This document shows, piece by piece, positions 45,034 through 54,261 of a DNA stretch of 64,000 bases. How positions within the stretch are numbered: the first letter of the stretch is position 1; each line of letters opens with the position of its first letter. The position numbers and the translations under genes are program-made. The DNA lies in assembly GCA_005878835.1 (NCBI GenBank), contig VBMV01000059.1, forward strand, positions 1 through 64,000. Reading direction: 5' to 3'. The stretch is from Gammaproteobacteria bacterium. GTDB taxonomy: Bacteria > Pseudomonadota > Gammaproteobacteria > Steroidobacterales > Steroidobacteraceae. The notes under the pieces are model-generated. The model did not search any database, had not been told where the DNA came from, and saw nothing but the letters and a program-made list of their open reading frames with translations.

Positions 45034-48000
45034 ATGCAGGCAATGGAAACGTTAAGCCAATCATCCCGGCGCCCGCCGGCGCAGGCGGCGGGCTGGCAGT
45101 TCTGGGTCGATCGCGGCGGTACGTTTACCGATGTCATCGGTCTGTCGCCCGCCGGCGAGCTGCACGTGCGCAAGGTGCCCTCGGCGAGCGCCGGTGGCGC
45201 GGCGGACGACCCGGGCTTGCGAGCGGTGCGCGCGATTCTCGCCGCCGCCGGCGCCGCCCCGCGTGCCGTGGCGGCGGTCAAGGTCGGGACCACCGTCGCG
45301 ACCAACGCGCTGCTCACGCGCAGCGGCGAGCCGGTGGTGCTGGTGACCAGCGCCGGTTTCGCCGATGCGCTGCGCATCGGTTACCAGAACCGGCCCGACA
45401 TCTTCGCGCGCGACATCGTGCTGCCCGAGCCCCTGTACGGCACCGTGATCGAGGCGCACGAGCGCATCGATGCGCACGGCGCGGTGCTGACGCCGCTGGA
45501 TGGGGCGCGCCTGCGCGCGGACCTCACCCGCGCGCGCCGCGCCGGTGCTCGCGCGGTGGCCATCGTCTTCCTGCATGGCTGGCGCCATCCGCAACACGAG
45601 CAGGAGGCAGCAAGCTGCGCACGCTCGCTCGGCTTCGAGGAAGTGTCGGTGTCGCACGAGCTGTCGCCGCTGGTGCGCTACGTCAGCCGCGGCGACACCA
45701 CGGTCCTCAATGCCTACCTCGCGCCGCCGCTGCGCAGCTACGTCGGCGCGCTGCACGAGCAGCTGCGCGCGCTCGATCCGCAGGTGCGCCTGACGCTCAT
45801 GCAGAGCAACGGCGGACTGGCGGCCGCGGAGAGCTTCCACGCCATGTCGAGCGTGTTGTCGGGGCCCGCGGGCGGGCTCATCGGCATGCGCTGGGTCGGG
45901 GAGCGCCTGGGCTACCCGCGCCTGATCGGCTTCGACATGGGCGGCACGTCCACGGACGTGTCACTGATCGACGGCGAGCTGCCGCAGCGCTTCGAGCACC
46001 TCATTGCCGGAGTGCGCCTGACCCAGCCGATGCTGGACGTGCACAGCATCGCCGCGGGCGGCGGTTCGGTGCTGAGCTTCAGGGACGGCCGCTTCGCGGT
46101 CGGCCCGGCCTCCGCGGGTGCGGACCCGGGGCCGGTGTGCTATGGGCGCGACGGACCGCTGACACTCACCGACGTGCAGGTGCTGCTCGGGCACCTGCGG
46201 CCCGACACCCTGCCCGCGCTCTTCGGGTGCGGCGGCCGCTCGCCCATCGATGCCGACGCGGTGGCGCGCCGCTTCGCCGCACTCACCGCCGAGCTCGGCG
46301 CGCAGGGCGCGCCCGGCGGCTCTGCCGAGAGGGTCGCCGAATCGTTCCTCGAGGTGGGGGTCGAGTCGATGGCGAACGCCATCCGCCAGGTATCCACCCG
46401 TCAGGGGCGCGATGCGGGCGAGTTCACGCTGTTCTGCTTCGGGGGCGCGGCCGGCCAGCACGCCTGCCGCGTCGCGCGCGCCGCCGGCGTGCGGCGCATT
46501 CTCGTGCATCCGCTGGCGAGCGTGCTGTCCGCCTTCGGCATCGGCGTGGCGGACCGCCTCGCCGTGCGCCGCGCGAGCCTGCGTCGGCTGCTCGACGAGC
46601 CCGGGCTCGCCGCGGCGCGCGCCGCGCTTGCCGCCCTCGAAGCGCAGGCGCGCGCTGAGCTCACCTCCCAGGGCGGTGAAGGCGGGCGCGTGCGCATCGC
46701 GCGGCTGCTGGAGCTGCGGGCCGGGGACAGCGACATCACGCTGTCGGTTCCGCTCGCGCCCCTGGATCAGGTGCGGCGGCGCCTGCACGCGGATCACCTG
46801 CTGCGCTTTGGCTTTGCCGCGCACACCCTCGCGGTGGTGATCGAGGCGCTGCGCGTGGAAGCGCGCCTCGCCTCGGTCGATGCCGCAACGCTCGCCATCC
46901 CGGAAGCCCCGGCGGTGGCCGAGCTGCCGCAGCGGGTGCGCGCCTGGTTCGGCGCCTGGCGCGAGGTGCCGCTCGTGGCCATGAGCGCGCTGCGCGGGGA
47001 GTTGCCGGGGCCGGCGCTGATCGTCGAGCCGCACAGCACGGTGGTGCTGGAAGAGGGCTGGCGTGCGCGGCGCCTCGTCGGCGGGGAGCTGCTGCTCGAG
47101 GATGACGGGGCGGCGCGCGCGGCGCTCGCCCCGGCGGTTGATGCCGCCCGCATCGAGATATTCAACAACCTGTTCATGCACATCGCCGAGCAGATGGGCG
47201 AGGTCCTCAGGGCGACCGCCCAGTCGGTCAATATCCGCGAACGCCTCGACTACTCCTGCGCCCTGTTCGACGGCGACGGCGGCCTGGTGGCCAACGCGCC
47301 GCACATGCCGGTGCATCTGGGCTCGATGGGCGCGAGCGTGCGCTCGGTCATCGCGGCGCAGCAGGCGCGGCTGCGTCCGGGGGACTCGTGGCTCCTGAAC
47401 AGTCCCTACCACGGCGGCACCCATCTGCCGGACATGACGGTGGTGACGCCGGTCTTCGTGGGCGGGCAGGCGCGGCCGGATTTCTTCGTCGCCTCGCGCG
47501 CGCATCACGCCGACATCGGCGGCGTGACGCCCGGCTCCATGCCGCCTTTCAGCCGCGCGATAGAGGAGGAAGGCGCGCTGTTCGAATGCTTTGCGCTGGT
47601 GAGTGCCGGGACGCTGCGCGAGAGCGAGTTGCGCGCGGCGCTCGCCGCTGGTCCCTGGCCGGCACGCAGGCCCGAGCAGAACCTCGCGGACCTGCGCGCC
47701 CAGCTGGCCGCCAACGCGCGCGGCATCGCCGAAATCGGCCGCGCCGTGCGGCGCCACGGTCTGGATACGCTGCGCGCCTACATGCGGCACGTGCAGGACA
47801 ACGCCGCGCAGTGCGTGCGCAACGCCATCGGGCGGCTGCAACCCGGCAGCTTCCGCTACGAAATGGACGGCGGCCAGCTGATCGCGGTGCGCGTCGACAT
47901 CGACCGCGAGCGGCGCCGCGCGCGCATCGATTTCACCGGAACCTCACCCCAGGGCGCGCACAACTTCAACGCCCCGCGCGCGGTGTGTACGGCGGCGGTG

Positions 48001-48666
48001 CTGTACGTGTTCCGTACGCTGATCGAGTGGCCGATTCCCCTGAACGAGGGATGCCTCGAGCCGCTGGAGATCGTCATTCCCGCCGGATCGCTCCTCGACC
48101 CGCGCCCGCCCGCGGCGGTGGCGGGAGGGAACGTGGAGACCTCACAGTGCATCGTCGATGCGCTGTACGCAGCGCTGGGAATTCTCGCCGCTTCCCAGGG
48201 AACCATGAACAACCTGACCTTCGGGGATGCGCACCTGCAGTACTACGAGACCATCGCCGGCGGCGCCGGCGCGGGGGCGGACTTCGACGGCTGCGACGCC
48301 GTGCAGACTCACATGACCAACTCGCGCCTCACCGACCCGGAGATCCTCGAGAGCGAGTTCCCGGTGCTGGTGCGGGAGTTCGCGATCCGCCGCGGCTCGG
48401 GTGGCGCCGGAAGGCACCGCGGCGGCGATGGCATCGTGCGGCGGCTGGAGTTTCGTGCCCCGTTCTCCGCAGCCTTGCTCGCCAATCACCGCCGCATTGC
48501 GCCCTTCGGGCTCGAGGGCGGGCAGCCCGGTGCCCGCGGTGAGGCGCGCATACGCCGCGCCGGCGGGGCGGTGGAGCCCCTGGGCGCCACGGCGCGCTTC
48601 GAGGTCGGACCGGCGGACGAGCTCCTCATCCTGACACCGGGTGGGGGTGGCTTCGGCTCACCGTAA
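45034..48666 (+). CDS. 5-oxoprolinase (fused HyuA/HyuB hydantoinase/oxoprolinase)
   Basis: FWVDRGGTFTDVIGLSP; GFDMGGTSTDVSLIDGE; HADIGGVTPGSMPPFS; C-terminal PGGGGFG. Confidence 0.94.
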   Translation: MQAMETLSQSSRRPPAQAAGWQFWVDRGGTFTDVIGLSPAGELHVRKVPSASAGGAADDPGLRAVRAILAAAGAAPRAVAAVKVGTTVATNALLTRSGEPVVLVTSAGFADALRIGYQNRPDIFARDIVLPEPLYGTVIEAHERIDAHGAVLTPLDGARLRADLTRARRAGARAVAIVFLHGWRHPQHEQEAASCARSLGFEEVSVSHELSPLVRYVSRGDTTVLNAYLAPPLRSYVGALHEQLRALDPQVRLTLMQSNGGLAAAESFHAMSSVLSGPAGGLIGMRWVGERLGYPRLIGFDMGGTSTDVSLIDGELPQRFEHLIAGVRLTQPMLDVHSIAAGGGSVLSFRDGRFAVGPASAGADPGPVCYGRDGPLTLTDVQVLLGHLRPDTLPALFGCGGRSPIDADAVARRFAALTAELGAQGAPGGSAERVAESFLEVGVESMANAIRQVSTRQGRDAGEFTLFCFGGAAGQHACRVARAAGVRRILVHPLASVLSAFGIGVADRLAVRRASLRRLLDEPGLAAARAALAALEAQARAELTSQGGEGGRVRIARLLELRAGDSDITLSVPLAPLDQVRRRLHADHLLRFGFAAHTLAVVIEALRVEARLASVDAATLAIPEAPAVAELPQRVRAWFGAWREVPLVAMSALRGELPGPALIVEPHSTVVLEEGWRARRLVGGELLLEDDGAARAALAPAVDAARIEIFNNLFMHIAEQMGEVLRATAQSVNIRERLDYSCALFDGDGGLVANAPHMPVHLGSMGASVRSVIAAQQARLRPGDSWLLNSPYHGGTHLPDMTVVTPVFVGGQARPDFFVASRAHHADIGGVTPGSMPPFSRAIEEEGALFECFALVSAGTLRESELRAALAAGPWPARRPEQNLADLRAQLAANARGIAEIGRAVRRHGLDTLRAYMRHVQDNAAQCVRNAIGRLQPGSFRYEMDGGQLIAVRVDIDRERRRARIDFTGTSPQGAHNFNAPRAVCTAAVLYVFRTLIEWPIPLNEGCLEPLEIVIPAGSLLDPRPPAAVAGGNVETSQCIVDALYAALGILAASQGTMNNLTFGDAHLQYYETIAGGAGAGADFDGCDAVQTHMTNSRLTDPEILESEFPVLVREFAIRRGSGGAGRHRGGDGIVRRLEFRAPFSAALLANHRRIAPFGLEGGQPGARGEARIRRAGGAVEPLGATARFEVGPADELLILTPGGGGFGSP

Positions 48667-50265
48667 AATCGCGGTCTCGATCTCCCACTCGACCCGGTGC
48701 TTCGCGGTCGCGGAGCGGTTCACCGACACCGGCCGCACCCGGCTCGTGCCGGCGCAATGCGTCACCAGCCAGGTGTCGAACACCCCCGGCTTGCTGCTGG
48801 CGAAACCGAACAGCAGGTTGAATTTGCCTTCGGCGAGAGTCTGCGGCCGGTTGACACGCTCATCGCTGATGACGAAGTGGCTCTGATCGGTGCCGGCGCC
48901 GGCAAAGGCGCCCTGCGCCGCCAGGGCGTCCAGAAAGGTCTCGACCCGGGCCTGGGCGCGCTGCCAGGTCGCAGGCCCATTATGTTCCAGCAGCACCCAG
49001 CGCGTGCCCTGCTCGATGCTCGCCGCCACGAACAGCGCCAGGCGCCGTGCCGAGAGGTACTGCCAGTCGCAGACACCGCCGCCCGCGCCCAGGGTGCGCG
49101 GGCTCACGTCGGGGCGCGAACCGACCCGCACCGACAGCAAGGTATTGACGCCCGCCTGCGCCAGCCGCATCCGATCGGCGTCGGACACCCCCACCGCCGG
49201 ACGCAACCCGGGACGCAGAATCGCCTCCTCGCTGTGCGCCCCCGCCCACACCGGCCAGGTCTCATCGGAGCGGGCGATCATGCCCGCCGCGGCGCCGCAG
49301 GAACCGAAGGTCTCTATGCGGCCGCGCAGCCGATCGAACGCCTGCACGCGCGGGTAGTACATGAGGGCGCTGTCGCTGCGGAACGGCCAGACCCGCAGGG
49401 CATCGAGCGCGGCGGGCGCGGACGTCCAGCTTGCTGGCGGGTCGACCAGCAGCAACGCCTGCCGGTCGCGGCACAGGCGCGCCGCCACCAGCAAGCTCGA
49501 CAGTCCCACATCGCGCTCGCGCGTCAACGGCGGGATGCACAGCAGGTTGAAGCGGGCGACGCCCTGCAGCGCAAACAGCCCGGTGCCGCTGCCGGCGGCG
49601 CCGATGATGTCGTAGTCGGTGAGCGGCGCGCCGTCATCCCCGTCGGGATTGGAGAGCGTGTAGCCGACCGCGACGCCCCCGGGTCCGCCGGCGGAGCGAT
49701 CCGGGCGCTGCGCGGGAACCGCACCCGCCACGCGCACCAGGCGCGATCCGAGCAGCAGGTCGGGGACGAAGCGGCCGGAAGCGGGCACCACCGACACGCG
49801 CCGGTAGATCTCCTGGTCTTCCACCAGCTCCGAGCCGGCGGTGCGCACGCGCTGCACCACCAGATTGAAGCGGTCGCGCTCGGCGCTGTTCAGGCCGTCA
49901 TAGTCCACCGAGGCGCGCAGGTACTCGCGCGAGCCGGGATTCACGGCCACCAGCTTGAGCTCGCTCCCGCCCGCCGGCAGGCAGAGGGTCGGCGGGCGCG
50001 CGCCGTTGGCGACGCGCACGATCAGTGCCTCGCGACCACCATTCTCGAAGAACTGCTCGACCGCGTAGGAGAGGGTCGAGGGCTGCCACAGGCCGCCGAA
50101 GTGCCGCTGGAACTCACTGAAGCTCGTGGTGCGCAGCGCCTGGTTGACCGGCCCCTTGAGGGTGCGGCCGACGAAAGCGGCGATTCCGGTGGGCACGCGC
50201 TCAATCGCGTGTTCGGTGCGGCTTTGTTGTACGAGTTCTACGCCGGACGCGGGGCTATCGGCCAC
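48658..50265 (-). CDS. contractile phage tail sheath-like protein (orphan)
   Basis: RVPTGIAAFVGRTLKGPVNQALRTTSFSEFQRHFGGLWQPSTLSYAVEQFFENGGREALIVRV (sheath N-term); TLGAGGGVCDWQYLSARRLALFVAASIEQGTRWVLLEHNGPATWQRAQARVETFLDALAAQGAFAG (sheath C-term). Confidence 0.9.
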   Translation of the reverse strand: MADSPASGVELVQQSRTEHAIERVPTGIAAFVGRTLKGPVNQALRTTSFSEFQRHFGGLWQPSTLSYAVEQFFENGGREALIVRVANGARPPTLCLPAGGSELKLVAVNPGSREYLRASVDYDGLNSAERDRFNLVVQRVRTAGSELVEDQEIYRRVSVVPASGRFVPDLLLGSRLVRVAGAVPAQRPDRSAGGPGGVAVGYTLSNPDGDDGAPLTDYDIIGAAGSGTGLFALQGVARFNLLCIPPLTRERDVGLSSLLVAARLCRDRQALLLVDPPASWTSAPAALDALRVWPFRSDSALMYYPRVQAFDRLRGRIETFGSCGAAAGMIARSDETWPVWAGAHSEEAILRPGLRPAVGVSDADRMRLAQAGVNTLLSVRVGSRPDVSPRTLGAGGGVCDWQYLSARRLALFVAASIEQGTRWVLLEHNGPATWQRAQARVETFLDALAAQGAFAGAGTDQSHFVISDERVNRPQTLAEGKFNLLFGFASSKPGVFDTWLVTHCAGTSRVRPVSVNRSATAKHRVEWEIETAILR

Positions 50266-50310: not shown

Positions 50311-50472
50311 TCAGCGGGTAGTCGGATTCTGGGCCGCTCCCGGCTCGCTGCGCTGCCGCGCGCCTTCCTCCCTGAGGCGCTGCGCCTCTTCGGCGCGCGC
50401 GCGTTCCAGATCCTCGCGCTTGCGCGCGATCTCCGCCAGCATCAGCTGCAGCCACTCGGACAGCGCCGTCAC
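50311..50472 (-). CDS. 53-aa predicted coiled-coil protein (not in ORF track)
   Basis: GTG 50472: MTALSEWLQLMLAEIARKREDLERARAEEAQRLREEGARQRSEPGAAQNPTTR*. Upstream GAGGAG about 8 nt from GTG. Sits 12 bp after the Ldt stop and 45 bp before the sheath start. Confidence 0.65.
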   Translation of the reverse strand: MTALSEWLQLMLAEIARKREDLERARAEEAQRLREEGARQRSEPGAAQNPTTR

Positions 50473-50484
50473 GGCGCACACTCC

Positions 50485-51729
50485 TCAGCCGCCATTCTTG
50501 GGGCGCGCCGGTGGCGCCTCGGCGGCGTCGGCCGGGGCATCGGCGGTCTGCTCGGGCGTATCCTCGGCCGGCGCGCCCGGCTCGATCTCGGACAGCATCT
50601 GCTTGAAGGAGGCTTCATCCATGGGCAGGTCCGACTTGCCATCCCAGGTGGAGCCTTCCGGAAGCACGTTCTGCACGCGCGGCGCCCCGGCCAGGACCTC
50701 ATCGACCGTAGCGTCGGAGGCGGTGATCGGGACGGGCACGCCGCGCGGAGCGCGCGCGAGCGCCGACACCAGCGTCCAGTCGACTTGGGTACCGTGCTCC
50801 TTCAGCTGCTGTTGCAGCGTCGCGGCCAGGGACTTGCTGAGGAGCCGCCGCTGGGCGTTCGCCCAGTCGCGCGTATCGTCCTCCAGAACGTCAAAGGGCT
50901 GCATGTACAGCTGCCCGTCACGCCAGCCGAACACGAACGGTTGATTGACCACGCGCACCTGGGTGCCGAGGGGCACCATGGCGAAGAACTGGGCGATGTC
51001 CTCCGGGTACAGGCGGATGCAGCCGTGGCTCGAACGCAGCCCGACGCCGGCTGGCTTATTGGTGCCATGAATCAGGTAGCTCGGCCACTGCAGGTAGAGC
51101 GCGTACTTGCCCAAGGGATTGTCCGGTCCGGGCCCGATCACCGGATCGAGATCCTCGCCGTTCTCGTGGTGCTCCTTGCGCACCGAGAGCGGCACGCGCC
51201 AGGTGGGATCCTGCTGGCGGCGCACGATCTTCGTGACGCCCTCCGGAGTTCGCCAGCCCACCTTGCCGATGCCGATGGGGTGCGTGAGCACGACGGGCGG
51301 TGCGCCGCGCCCGACCGGGGGATAGTAGAAGATCCGCATGGCCGCGATGTTGATCACGAGCCCGGTGCGCGGCGCGTTCGGCAGAATGAACTGCGACGGA
51401 ACCACGATCTCCCGGCCCTCCCCCGGCAGCCAGGGGTCGACCTTGGGATTGGCGCGCACGATCTCCTCGTACCCGACGTTGAAGCGACGTGCGATATCGC
51501 TGAGCGTGTCGTCCTTGCCGGCCGTCACCACCTGCACGACGCCGACGACGTCCTGAGCGGGGTCGAGCTCGAAGCGCTCGTTGGCCACTGGCGGGGGCAG
51601 CGCCGGCGCCGCCGGCGGGGCCGGCGCTGCGGGAGGCGCCGGGTGCCGCAACGGGGCGAAGAGCGAGCACCCCGCGATCAGCAGGCACGTCAGCGCGGCA
51701 GTAGCGCGGGCCGTGGAGGCAGCCTTCAT
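50485..51729 (-). CDS. L,D-transpeptidase lipoprotein with LysM-like and YkuD domains
   Basis: MKAASTARATAALTCLLIAGC lipobox; DTLSDIARRFNVGYEEIVRANPKVDPWLPGEGREIVVP LysM; HGTNKPAGVGLRSSHGCIRLYPEDI catalytic SHGCIRL. Confidence 0.96.
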   Translation of the reverse strand: MKAASTARATAALTCLLIAGCSLFAPLRHPAPPAAPAPPAAPALPPPVANERFELDPAQDVVGVVQVVTAGKDDTLSDIARRFNVGYEEIVRANPKVDPWLPGEGREIVVPSQFILPNAPRTGLVINIAAMRIFYYPPVGRGAPPVVLTHPIGIGKVGWRTPEGVTKIVRRQQDPTWRVPLSVRKEHHENGEDLDPVIGPGPDNPLGKYALYLQWPSYLIHGTNKPAGVGLRSSHGCIRLYPEDIAQFFAMVPLGTQVRVVNQPFVFGWRDGQLYMQPFDVLEDDTRDWANAQRRLLSKSLAATLQQQLKEHGTQVDWTLVSALARAPRGVPVPITASDATVDEVLAGAPRVQNVLPEGSTWDGKSDLPMDEASFKQMLSEIEPGAPAEDTPEQTADAPADAAEAPPARPKNGG

Positions 51730-51779: not shown

Positions 51780-52277
51780 CTACAGCAGCACGGGCTGGTT
51801 GGGCAGCTCGTGGTCGCTGTGGTGCCGCCCCGGGAAGTGCCGTCCCAGCAGTGCCGCCACGCCCTCGATACCCGCGATCGAGCCCTCGCCATAGCGCCTG
51901 GCGCGGTAGTGCAGCTCCATCTGCCGGCACACCGCCTGCCACTCAGGCTGCGCGATGCGCTCGGCGATGCCGCGGTCGGCGATGATCTCGACCACCCGGT
52001 CCGCCACGAGCACGTAGATGAGGACACCGTTGTTGTACGCCGTGTCCCATACGCCGAGCTGTCCGAACAGCTGCAGCGCGCGCGGCCGTGGCGGCAGATC
52101 GTGCCACAGCTCCGGCAGATCCAGGGCGGTCTCGACCACGAAGCGGATCTCCCCCGCATGCTGCGCTTCGCAGCGGCCGATGGCCTGCTCGATGGCGGCG
52201 CGAACCTGCGGCGTGAAGCGCCGGCGCGTGCTCCAGCGCGTGGTGGCGAGGTGGCGAATGAGGCGCAGGAATCGCAT
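51780..52277 (-). CDS. TPM domain-containing protein
   Basis: VRAAIEQAIGRCEAQHAGEIRFVVETALDLPELWHDLPPRPRALQLFGQLGVWDTAYNNGVLIYVLVADRVVEIIADRGI. Confidence 0.9.
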   Translation of the reverse strand: MRFLRLIRHLATTRWSTRRRFTPQVRAAIEQAIGRCEAQHAGEIRFVVETALDLPELWHDLPPRPRALQLFGQLGVWDTAYNNGVLIYVLVADRVVEIIADRGIAERIAQPEWQAVCRQMELHYRARRYGEGSIAGIEGVAALLGRHFPGRHHSDHELPNQPVLL

Positions 52278-52290
52278 GACCAGGTCCCTC

Positions 52291-53190
52291 CTACCAGCTT
52301 CCGGAGGCGCCGCCGCCCCCGAATCCTCCGCCACCACCGCTGAATCCACCGCCGCCGAATCCTCCGCCCCCGAGGCCGCCGCCGAATCCGCCGAAGCCCC
52401 CGGCACGCGGGTAGCTCGACCAGCCGCTGCCACGCGCCAGACCGCCGAGCAGCGTGAACAGGAACGCGCCCGCCGCGGCGAGCAGCGCCAGGAGCAGCGC
52501 GTAGCCGGCGATCCACACCAGCAGGCCCGTGCCGACCGCGGTGAAGGCCGAGCCCAGCGTGCGTCCGAAGACCGCGCGCAGCAGCACCGAACCGACAAAA
52601 ACGGCGAACAGCATCAGCGGCAAGGGGCTCGAGCCGTGCGCGCGCCGGCCGGACTGCCACTCGTGCTCGGGGGGCGGCAGCGGCTCGCCTTCGATGAGCT
52701 TCATCATCTGCTCGAGGCCGGCGTCGATGCCGGCGTAGTAATTGCCCTGGCGGAAGGCGGGCCGCAGGGTCTCCGAGATGATGCGGTTGCACATGGCATC
52801 GGTCAGGACACCCTCGAGACCATAGCCGACCTCGATGCGCACGCGGTGATCGTTCCTGGCAATGATCAGCAGCGCGCCGTCATCCACCTTGTGCCGGCCG
52901 AGCTTCCACTCATCGACCACCCGGATCGAGTACTGCTCGATCTGCTCCGGTTCGGTCGTCGCCACGAGCAGCAGCGCGAGCTGCGAGCCCTTGGCGGACT
53001 CGAACGCCGCGAGCTTCTGCTCGAGCGCGCTCTGCTGCTCCGCGCTCAGGGTACCGGTGAGATCGGTGACGCGCGCCGTCAGCTTCGGGATCGGCTGCAG
53101 GCCCTGCGCGCCCGGCATCACCCCAGGGCCCAGCAGCAGCGCCAGCGCCAGTCCCGCCCGCGCTCGGGCGCCGCTCGAGCCGGCGATCAT
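52291..53190 (-). CDS. TPM domain (YgcG-like) membrane protein with Gly-rich tail
   Basis: RVTDLTGTLSAEQQSALEQKLAAFESAKGSQLALLLVATTEPEQIEQYSIRVVDEWKLG; GGGFGGGGFSGGGGGFGGGGASGSW end; 4-bp overlap with lemA. Confidence 0.93.
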   Translation of the reverse strand: MIAGSSGARARAGLALALLLGPGVMPGAQGLQPIPKLTARVTDLTGTLSAEQQSALEQKLAAFESAKGSQLALLLVATTEPEQIEQYSIRVVDEWKLGRHKVDDGALLIIARNDHRVRIEVGYGLEGVLTDAMCNRIISETLRPAFRQGNYYAGIDAGLEQMMKLIEGEPLPPPEHEWQSGRRAHGSSPLPLMLFAVFVGSVLLRAVFGRTLGSAFTAVGTGLLVWIAGYALLLALLAAAGAFLFTLLGGLARGSGWSSYPRAGGFGGFGGGLGGGGFGGGGFSGGGGGFGGGGASGSW

Positions 53191-53843
53191 TTCGTCGCGG
53201 GTTGTCCCGGGGACGCCGCGGCAGCGGCCGGCGCGGCCGGTGCCCCGGGGGGCGAGGTGTCGAAGCTGACCGTCGGGGCGGTCGCGATCTGCTGCTCGTT
53301 GGCGACCTGGAAGCTCGGCTTCACCTGGAAACCGAACATCTTCGCCGTGAGATTGACGGGGAAGGAGCGCACCGTCACGTTGTAAGCCTGCACCGCCTGG
53401 ATGTAGCGATTGCGCGCCACGGTGATGCGGTTTTCAGTGCCCTCGAGCTGCGATTGCAGATCGCGGAAATTCTGGTCCGACTTCAGCTGCGGATAGTTCT
53501 CGACCACCACCATCAGGCTCTTCAGCGCCTGGGTGAGATCGCCCTGCGCGGCCTGGTACTTCTGGAACAGCTGCGGGTTATTGAGTACCTCGGGCGTCAC
53601 CTGGATGGAGCTCGCCCGGGCGCGCGCCTCGGTCACCCCGATCAGCACTTTCTGCTCCTGGGCCGCGTAGCCCTTCACGGTGTTGACGAGATTCGGGATG
53701 AGATCGGCCCGGCGCTGATACTGATTCACGACCTCGGACCAGGCCGCCTTGACGCCCTCGTCCTGTTGCTGCAGGGAGTTGTAACCGCAGCCTGACAGGC
53801 CCAGGACCGCGGCACCCACAAGGGCGAGAAACCACGCGCGCAT
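53187..53843 (-). CDS. lemA: LemA family protein
   Basis: GCGYNSLQQQDEGVKAAWSEVVNQYQRRADLIPNLVNTVKGYAAQEQKVL; ENRITVARNRYIQAVQAYNVTVRSFP. Confidence 0.97.
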   Translation of the reverse strand: MRAWFLALVGAAVLGLSGCGYNSLQQQDEGVKAAWSEVVNQYQRRADLIPNLVNTVKGYAAQEQKVLIGVTEARARASSIQVTPEVLNNPQLFQKYQAAQGDLTQALKSLMVVVENYPQLKSDQNFRDLQSQLEGTENRITVARNRYIQAVQAYNVTVRSFPVNLTAKMFGFQVKPSFQVANEQQIATAPTVSFDTSPPGAPAAPAAAAASPGQPATK

Positions 53844-53968: not shown

Positions 53969-54000
53969 AAAAAAAACCCCAGGTTTTGAGGCCTGGGGTT
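53969..54000 (-). terminator. strong intrinsic terminator (minus-strand reading)
   Basis: Minus strand AACCCCAGG-CCTCAAA-ACCTGGGGTTTTTTTT-type structure: 9-bp stem (53975-54000) followed by T-run. Confidence 0.9.
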
Positions 54001-54048: not shown

Positions 54049-54261
54049 TCAGTGCAATCGCGCCCAGTGCAGGATCCGGATGTCCTCACAGTCCAGGTCG
54101 AAGCTCTGTGCCAGCAGCGCGCGCAGCTCACGGTTGGCGCGCGTGTTGCTGAGCGGCTCGCGCAGCTCGACTACGCCGCTCCATTCGCTGCCGCAGGGGG
54201 GGCTTTGCGCCTTGCCGCCGCCGGTGACGAAGTGCGTGTAGTACTTGGTAGCCACGGTCAC
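54049..54261 (-). CDS. small conserved-looking hypothetical protein, 70 aa
   Basis: MTVATKYYTHFVTGGGKAQSPPCGSEWSGVVELREPLSNTRANRELRALLAQSFDLDCEDIRILHWARLH; ends just before a strong terminator. Confidence 0.6.
   Translation of the reverse strand: MTVATKYYTHFVTGGGKAQSPPCGSEWSGVVELREPLSNTRANRELRALLAQSFDLDCEDIRILHWARLH

Follow-up and report, generated by a model that had tools for sequence, protein, structure and literature searches.

An orphan sheath-fold protein inherited without detected tube or baseplate genes in the Steroidobacterales, and the small helical protein and L,D-transpeptidase encoded beside it

Introduction

To our knowledge, sheath proteins are known solely as parts of contractile machines. 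In the sheaths described, subunits are connected through the arms, and the C-terminal domain is turned towards the tube. The closest described relatives of the protein considered here are the sheaths of contractile injection systems (PHROG 23), which include the contracted sheath of H. borinquense (9ezm) and those of Streptomyces coelicolor (8bky/9gtp) and Anabaena (7b5h). The fold is the same and the homology is nearly full-length. In contrast to these sheaths, however, the protein described below is the product of a chromosomal core gene located beside envelope genes. A genome-wide survey of eCIS operons demanded linked core genes, at least four and later at least ten (PMC8213781), and a lone sheath therefore falls outside that survey by definition. 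A search of an open library, with incomplete coverage of the literature, returned no paper describing an orphan sheath unit.

A second described group bears on the locus. L,D-transpeptidases (Ldts) of the LdtE type (NF047955, PRK10190, PRK10260) share their LysM and YkuD domains and the SHGC-R motif with the Ldt encoded here, which differs from them in scoring below the equivalog level, in belonging to a paralogue clade of its own that is linked with the orphan sheath and in its variable C-terminal tail.

The source DNA is contig VBMV01000059.1 (GCA_005878835.1) from a member of the Steroidobacteraceae, which the NCBI taxonomy places within the Steroidobacterales; the window is the whole stretch analysed, positions 1-64,000. 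Numbered families, genomes and loci carry the prefixes f, G and L, respectively. Counts derive from profile searches or tblastn, simple ORF calling having erred on some genes that overlap or are AT-rich (L045, L046, L055 and antisense frames of the window).

Gene order of the locus

Three genes on the minus strand form the centre of the locus. The Ldt gene occupies 50485-51729, with an ATG at 51729, a TGA ending at 50485 and a product of 414 aa. It is followed after 12 bp by a small ORF (sORF) of 53 aa at 50311-50472, which starts with a GTG at 50472 and whose stop ends at 50311. After a further 45 bp comes the gene of an orphan, i.e. tube-less, sheath-fold protein of 535 aa (48658-50265, start GTG 50265). 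Direct reading of the sequence places a GAGGAG resembling a ribosome-binding site at 50481-50486 (-), 8 nt 5' of the sORF GTG and overlapping the Ldt stop. All of these positions, codons and gaps, together with the strand, agree with the initial annotation, which had proposed a three-gene unit of Ldt, sORF and tail sheath.

Order and strand of the trio are maintained across the Steroidobacteraceae and in further families of the order. The trio is thus a conserved and ancient unit, so the possibility that it is limited to close strains, which had been put forward as grounds for abandoning the proposal, does not hold. Between Ldt and sORF the median gap is 14 bp, the stop of the one frequently overlapping the start of the other, and families 1 and 7 are alike in this; between sORF and sheath the median is 74 bp. 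Both medians are taken from a locus set that counts some genomes twice. Genes inserted variably within the trio encode, as named by sequence reading, an M1 peptidase, a glycosyltransferase, a rhomboid protein, a D-cysteine desulfhydrase and an EamA protein; order and strand nevertheless stay intact, even in family 11 (L224, L225), in which the trio extends over ~17 kb. Ldt is linked to the sheath in 34/36 loci of f1 and in all sampled loci of f2, f3, f7 and f15. Other genes of the block, encoding a hydantoinase, an alpha/beta hydrolase and a 65-aa protein, are also partly conserved, and as background synteny is to this extent retained, linkage alone is no proof of a common function.

In the window, the unit is probably larger than the three genes first proposed. 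Upstream of Ldt on the same strand lie two genes for TPM-domain proteins, one at 51780-52277 (PF04536, E 2.8e-13 on 51780-52268; start by sequence reading) and the other at 52291-53190 (PF04536, E 1.7e-40), the latter ORF sharing 4 bp with that of a putative LemA-like lipoprotein at 53187-53843 (-), a name given by reading the sequence rather than by a family search. LemA-like homologues were found in 27 of the 36 Steroidobacteraceae loci and in none from other families. A strong terminator-like site on the minus strand, at 53975-54000, lies just 5' of the LemA-like gene, and from this gene down to the sheath the strand holds a single, weak one (52467-52484). Since the sole strong site precedes the LemA-like gene, a six-gene unit LemA-TPM-TPM-Ldt-sORF-sheath is plausible in the window, and in Steroidobacteraceae transcription of the unit is likely to begin with the LemA-like gene.

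A further conserved small protein, of ~70 aa, is encoded 5' of the block in the window (54049-54261, -); relatives have 65 aa with KYYTHF near the start, and this protein is kept 5' of the block in families 1, 6, 7 and 15. On the other side, a convergent hydantoinase gene shares 9 bp with the 3' end of the sheath gene. It encodes hydantoinase A and B in a single-chain fusion of the 5-oxoprolinase type (45034-48666, +), and many families of the order have this fusion close to their orphan sheath.

Descent and distribution of the orphan sheath

The orphan sheath matches PHROG 23 (E 6.3e-31) and the sequences of injection-system sheaths in the PDB, with values down to 4e-33 (9ezm), while scoring under the Pfam gathering cut-offs of PF04984 and PF17482 (20 against 31.4 and 15 against 26.9 bits). 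An AlphaFold model computed with 34 homologues (pLDDT 87, pTM 0.85) has as its best Foldseek match in the PDB the same contracted sheath, 9ezm (E 2.9e-29). The protein is a sheath by descent, as its identification as a tail sheath from the letters alone had supposed.

Within the Steroidobacteraceae, an orphan sheath is present in 132/150 genomes, including 86/96 good ones and all 25 genera, nearly always in single copy. Across the order, 77/117 genomes (65/89 good ones) carry a sheath, which in one of the 77 (G157) is an injection-system sheath and not an orphan. Absences cluster in whole groups, namely genus 13 of family 1 and families 9, 12, 13, 14 and 16, in samples across which genome completeness varies. 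Named relatives belong to the Steroidobacteraceae or to unclassified gammaproteobacterial or proteobacterial MAGs. No clear orphan sheath was found outside the order in samples of the class (369 genomes) and the phylum (399 genomes). The sheaths in these samples score at most 400 bits against the orphan profile, and where neighbours were read a gp19-type tube mostly stands alongside (the f77 contig is too short to tell); the phylum sample yielded a single match outside the order (G736, 280 bits).

A search with the T4 gp19-type tube family (PF06841) and the gp25 baseplate family (PF04965) covered 32 genomes, 22 with an orphan sheath only and 10 injection-system controls. No tube was detected in the 22 orphan-only genomes, which include the source genome (G000) and seven single-contig assemblies, and no gp25 match over the cut-off, the single weak match below it being in G008, whereas both families were present in the 10 controls. 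Sharing the sheath component with eCIS operons, these genomes nevertheless have no tube or gp25 homologue and so lie outside the eCIS multi-gene definition. A tube or gp25 baseplate hidden elsewhere in the genome was also considered, and none was found in these searches with working controls.

A maximum-likelihood tree built from 79 sheaths unites 65 orphans in a single clade (SH-aLRT 98), within which multi-member families are mostly monophyletic. Its sister comprises injection-system sheaths from other orders (SH-aLRT 99), which score about 180-400 bits against the orphan profile (f96, f92, f152 and others) and whose loci mostly have a gp19-type tube gene directly after the sheath. Both this tree and that of the Ldts are quick trees in which support is SH-aLRT only. 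The orphan sheath has one origin and has been vertically inherited.

Genuine injection systems also occur in the order. A few genomes contain clusters in which sheaths alternate with gp19-type tubes (L063, L064, L065, L066, L192, L193), and genomes of families 1 and 7 with such clusters carry the orphan sheath too. The second sheath of G169 (L190, G169:C3:378000-394500) has an in-frame stop, no tube was seen beside it, and in the tree it groups with injection-system sheaths, not orphans. In other gammaproteobacterial families, the loci L194-L196 and L198-L202 show a fixed order of sheath, gp19-type tube, a Cys-containing protein of 245 aa and further genes; the closest relatives of the orphan sheath are of this injection-system type.

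A degenerate prophage or injection-system remnant would account for sheath homology in the absence of other tail genes. Reading frames are, however, full-length throughout the Steroidobacteraceae, pN/pS of the sheath is 0.31 among close relatives, the orphans form a single clade that tracks the families, and tblastn (1e-5) finds no match to the orphan sheath among 50,697 phage records. Purifying selection and order-wide retention lead to rejection of this explanation, whose probability is negligible. A scan of IMG/VR returned six relatives with 33-47% identity in the best segment.

Constraint on the sheath protein

Mean pairwise identity among the sister injection-system sheaths is 85% in the N-arm, 57% in the N-domain, 34% in the insertion, 56% in the core, 79% in the C-domain and 76% in the C-arm; the corresponding values among orphans are 21, 54, 46, 37, 33 and 28%. 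Because overall divergence and size are not the same in the two groups, the argument rests on how the regions rank inside each group rather than on absolute values. On this measure, constraint is inverted relative to the sister sheaths: the assembly arms, together with the C-terminal, tube-side domain, have drifted and are weakly constrained, whilst the N-terminal and insertion domains have been kept. Forty-six residues fixed in the sister sheaths are lost in orphans, the YPGVY arm among them. In the insertion domain, the conserved residues are R113, E114, R117, D121, N134, R139, Q151, E152, R187, D211 and D219. Family 11 orphans retain a more arm-like N-terminus.

This inversion makes a working contractile sheath unlikely in the orphans. 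Selection on assembly seems to have been relaxed, and that on the N-terminal and insertion domains maintained, since the drifted parts are those that link subunits and face the tube. The initial annotation had spoken of a sheath-like polymer, an idea against which the constraint pattern argues and which the missing tube and gp25 genes of the orphan-only genomes further weaken.

The protein might nonetheless still polymerise into a filament lacking a tube, or into a tubule of the contracted type, and serve as an internal or membrane-linked structure. The retained fold, with its best match in a contracted sheath, would be in keeping with this, as would the many core residues that orphans still have in common with the sister group, and weakened arms would leave room for another kind of polymer or assembly. 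Against it, the subunit-linking N- and C-arms are the least conserved parts, the arm motif YPGVY..EEVPSG is degenerate in most orphans, no tube or gp25 baseplate gene was found, and in Streptomyces an insertion in the N-terminal linker is already enough to block contraction (PMC10066040). Continued polymerisation therefore appears improbable, though by no means negligible.

Sheath ancestry would also suit a decoy, an orphan subunit that poisons the sheath assembly of infecting contractile-tailed phages. Domesticated phage-derived proteins can indeed interfere with assembly. The gene is, however, core and vertically inherited rather than patchy, the surfaces needed for co-assembly have drifted, PADLOC-DB holds no family for Ldt, sORF or sheath at E 0.1, and the phage records are without a match; such an anti-phage or anti-injection role is very improbable.

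A conserved one-helix protein

The sORF is modelled as a single helix over residues 6-42 with the core motif W7-x3-M11-L12-x-E14-x2-R17-K18, of which M1, W7, M11, E14 and R17 are invariant in a profile of 18 members. It was found in 21/36 Steroidobacteraceae loci and in families f2, f7 and f11, always upstream of the sheath and on the same strand. When 117 whole genomes were searched with the profile, all 23 matches with E <0.001 lay upstream of an orphan sheath, on the same strand and no more than 5 kb away, and no confident match occurred in genomes lacking it. Its pN/pS is 0.64 overall; for alignment codons 1-30 it is 0.50, compared with 1.07 and 1.66 when the two incorrect frames are read. 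The sORF is thus a coding one-helix protein, conserved as protein far beyond chance, without a match in Pfam, NCBIfam or PHROGs, and the adaptor or chaperone role first suggested for it is plausible. Neither it nor the sheath has an export signal visible by eye. The sORF is not recognisable in f15, f3, f6 or part of f1, and therefore cannot be essential everywhere.

A natural deletion bears on the grouping of the three genes. In G012 (L218), sORF and sheath are both absent. The LemA gene, the two TPM genes and Ldt remain intact there, and an alpha/beta hydrolase gene follows whose start overlaps with the Ldt stop. In most other Steroidobacteraceae loci this hydrolase gene lies near the sheath, in several directly after it. 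Joint loss with Ldt kept supports the sORF-sheath pair and a separable Ldt, on the strength of this one event.

The linked L,D-transpeptidase

The window Ldt was expected to combine LysM with an SHGC-R catalytic motif, and the domain searches bear this out (LysM, E 2e-5; YkuD, PF03734, E 5.2e-21). Across 22 homologues H221, S234, G236 and the catalytic C237 are invariant and H235 and R239 nearly so. Against NF047955 it scores 196.6 bits (E 5.6e-58), under the equivalog cut-off of 480 bits. A lipobox, LLIAGC (Cys21), is followed by Ser, which under the rule known from E. coli points to the outer membrane. Ldt thus has the appearance of a lipoprotein of that membrane, whereas sORF and sheath show no export signal, and in G012 it is separable from both; a direct coupling of the unit to peptidoglycan, as suggested at the outset, would be conjectural.

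Two LysM-Ldts are encoded in the majority of genomes that have the unit. Those linked to the sheath group together (55 rows, SH-aLRT 99), distinct from the generic Ldts, as a dedicated paralogue clade. Genomes with an Ldt scoring at least 449 bits have an orphan sheath in 52/53 cases, an overlap that is not an independent test, since linked copies went into the profile and the families lacking the sheath are lineages of their own.

It could be that sheath and sORF cooperate and that Ldt is a mere neighbour through block synteny, the link to the cell wall being an accident of position. The deletion in G012 would fit this, as do f10, in which the sheath occurs without the linked Ldt (as it does in f5 and f8), and the similar retention of further block genes. 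Yet Ldt is the most persistent linked gene while the intervening genes change, the linked copy is always the sheath-linked paralogue and never the generic one, and sheath-less genomes of f6 (g42, g57) and f7 (g59) have the generic Ldt only. A purely positional association is the strongest competitor here, yet an unlikely one.

Proposed role and implications

The reading preferred here, to which we assign a probability of about 0.5, is that of a cytoplasmic scaffold, non-contractile and joined by a helical partner, within an envelope unit. A contractile injection system sheath would have been captured once, in an ancestor of the order, and then passed down vertically as a core gene, in single copy and with neither tube nor baseplate. 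The protein would most likely have stopped building a contractile sheath and would serve, either alone or in a small assembly of subunits, as a cytoplasmic scaffold or binding hub whose N-terminal and outer insertion domains may touch a putative partner. The sORF product is a conserved amphipathic helix whose most likely role is to bind this protein, be it as an adaptor, a cap or a small chaperone. Both would be co-transcribed with the dedicated, periplasmic Ldt paralogue and, in Steroidobacteraceae, with the LemA and TPM proteins, and because of this co-transcription a role in envelope upkeep or envelope stress is proposed.

These elements differ in strength. Computation establishes the ancestry of the sheath, its orphan status and its vertical inheritance, along with the conserved gene order, the pattern of constraint, the coding nature of the sORF and the paralogue clade of the Ldt, whereas the loss of polymerisation, binding between sORF and sheath, co-transcription and the envelope role are inferred. 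Exaptation of the sheath itself is very probable. That a non-contractile sheath-fold scaffold and a dedicated micro-protein are functionally coupled to a dedicated Ldt, forming an envelope system core to a whole gammaproteobacterial order, is a more tentative proposal, on balance doubtful.

A sheath that has been kept order-wide without its machine, with constraint moved off the assembly surfaces, offers a testable case of exaptation, in which a phage-tail part has entered a cell-envelope gene context. It also counsels caution in annotation, as a lone annotated phage tail sheath in a genome need not mean a prophage or an injection system. For the Steroidobacterales, an inherited core sheath without a machine points to an undescribed household job for the sheath fold.
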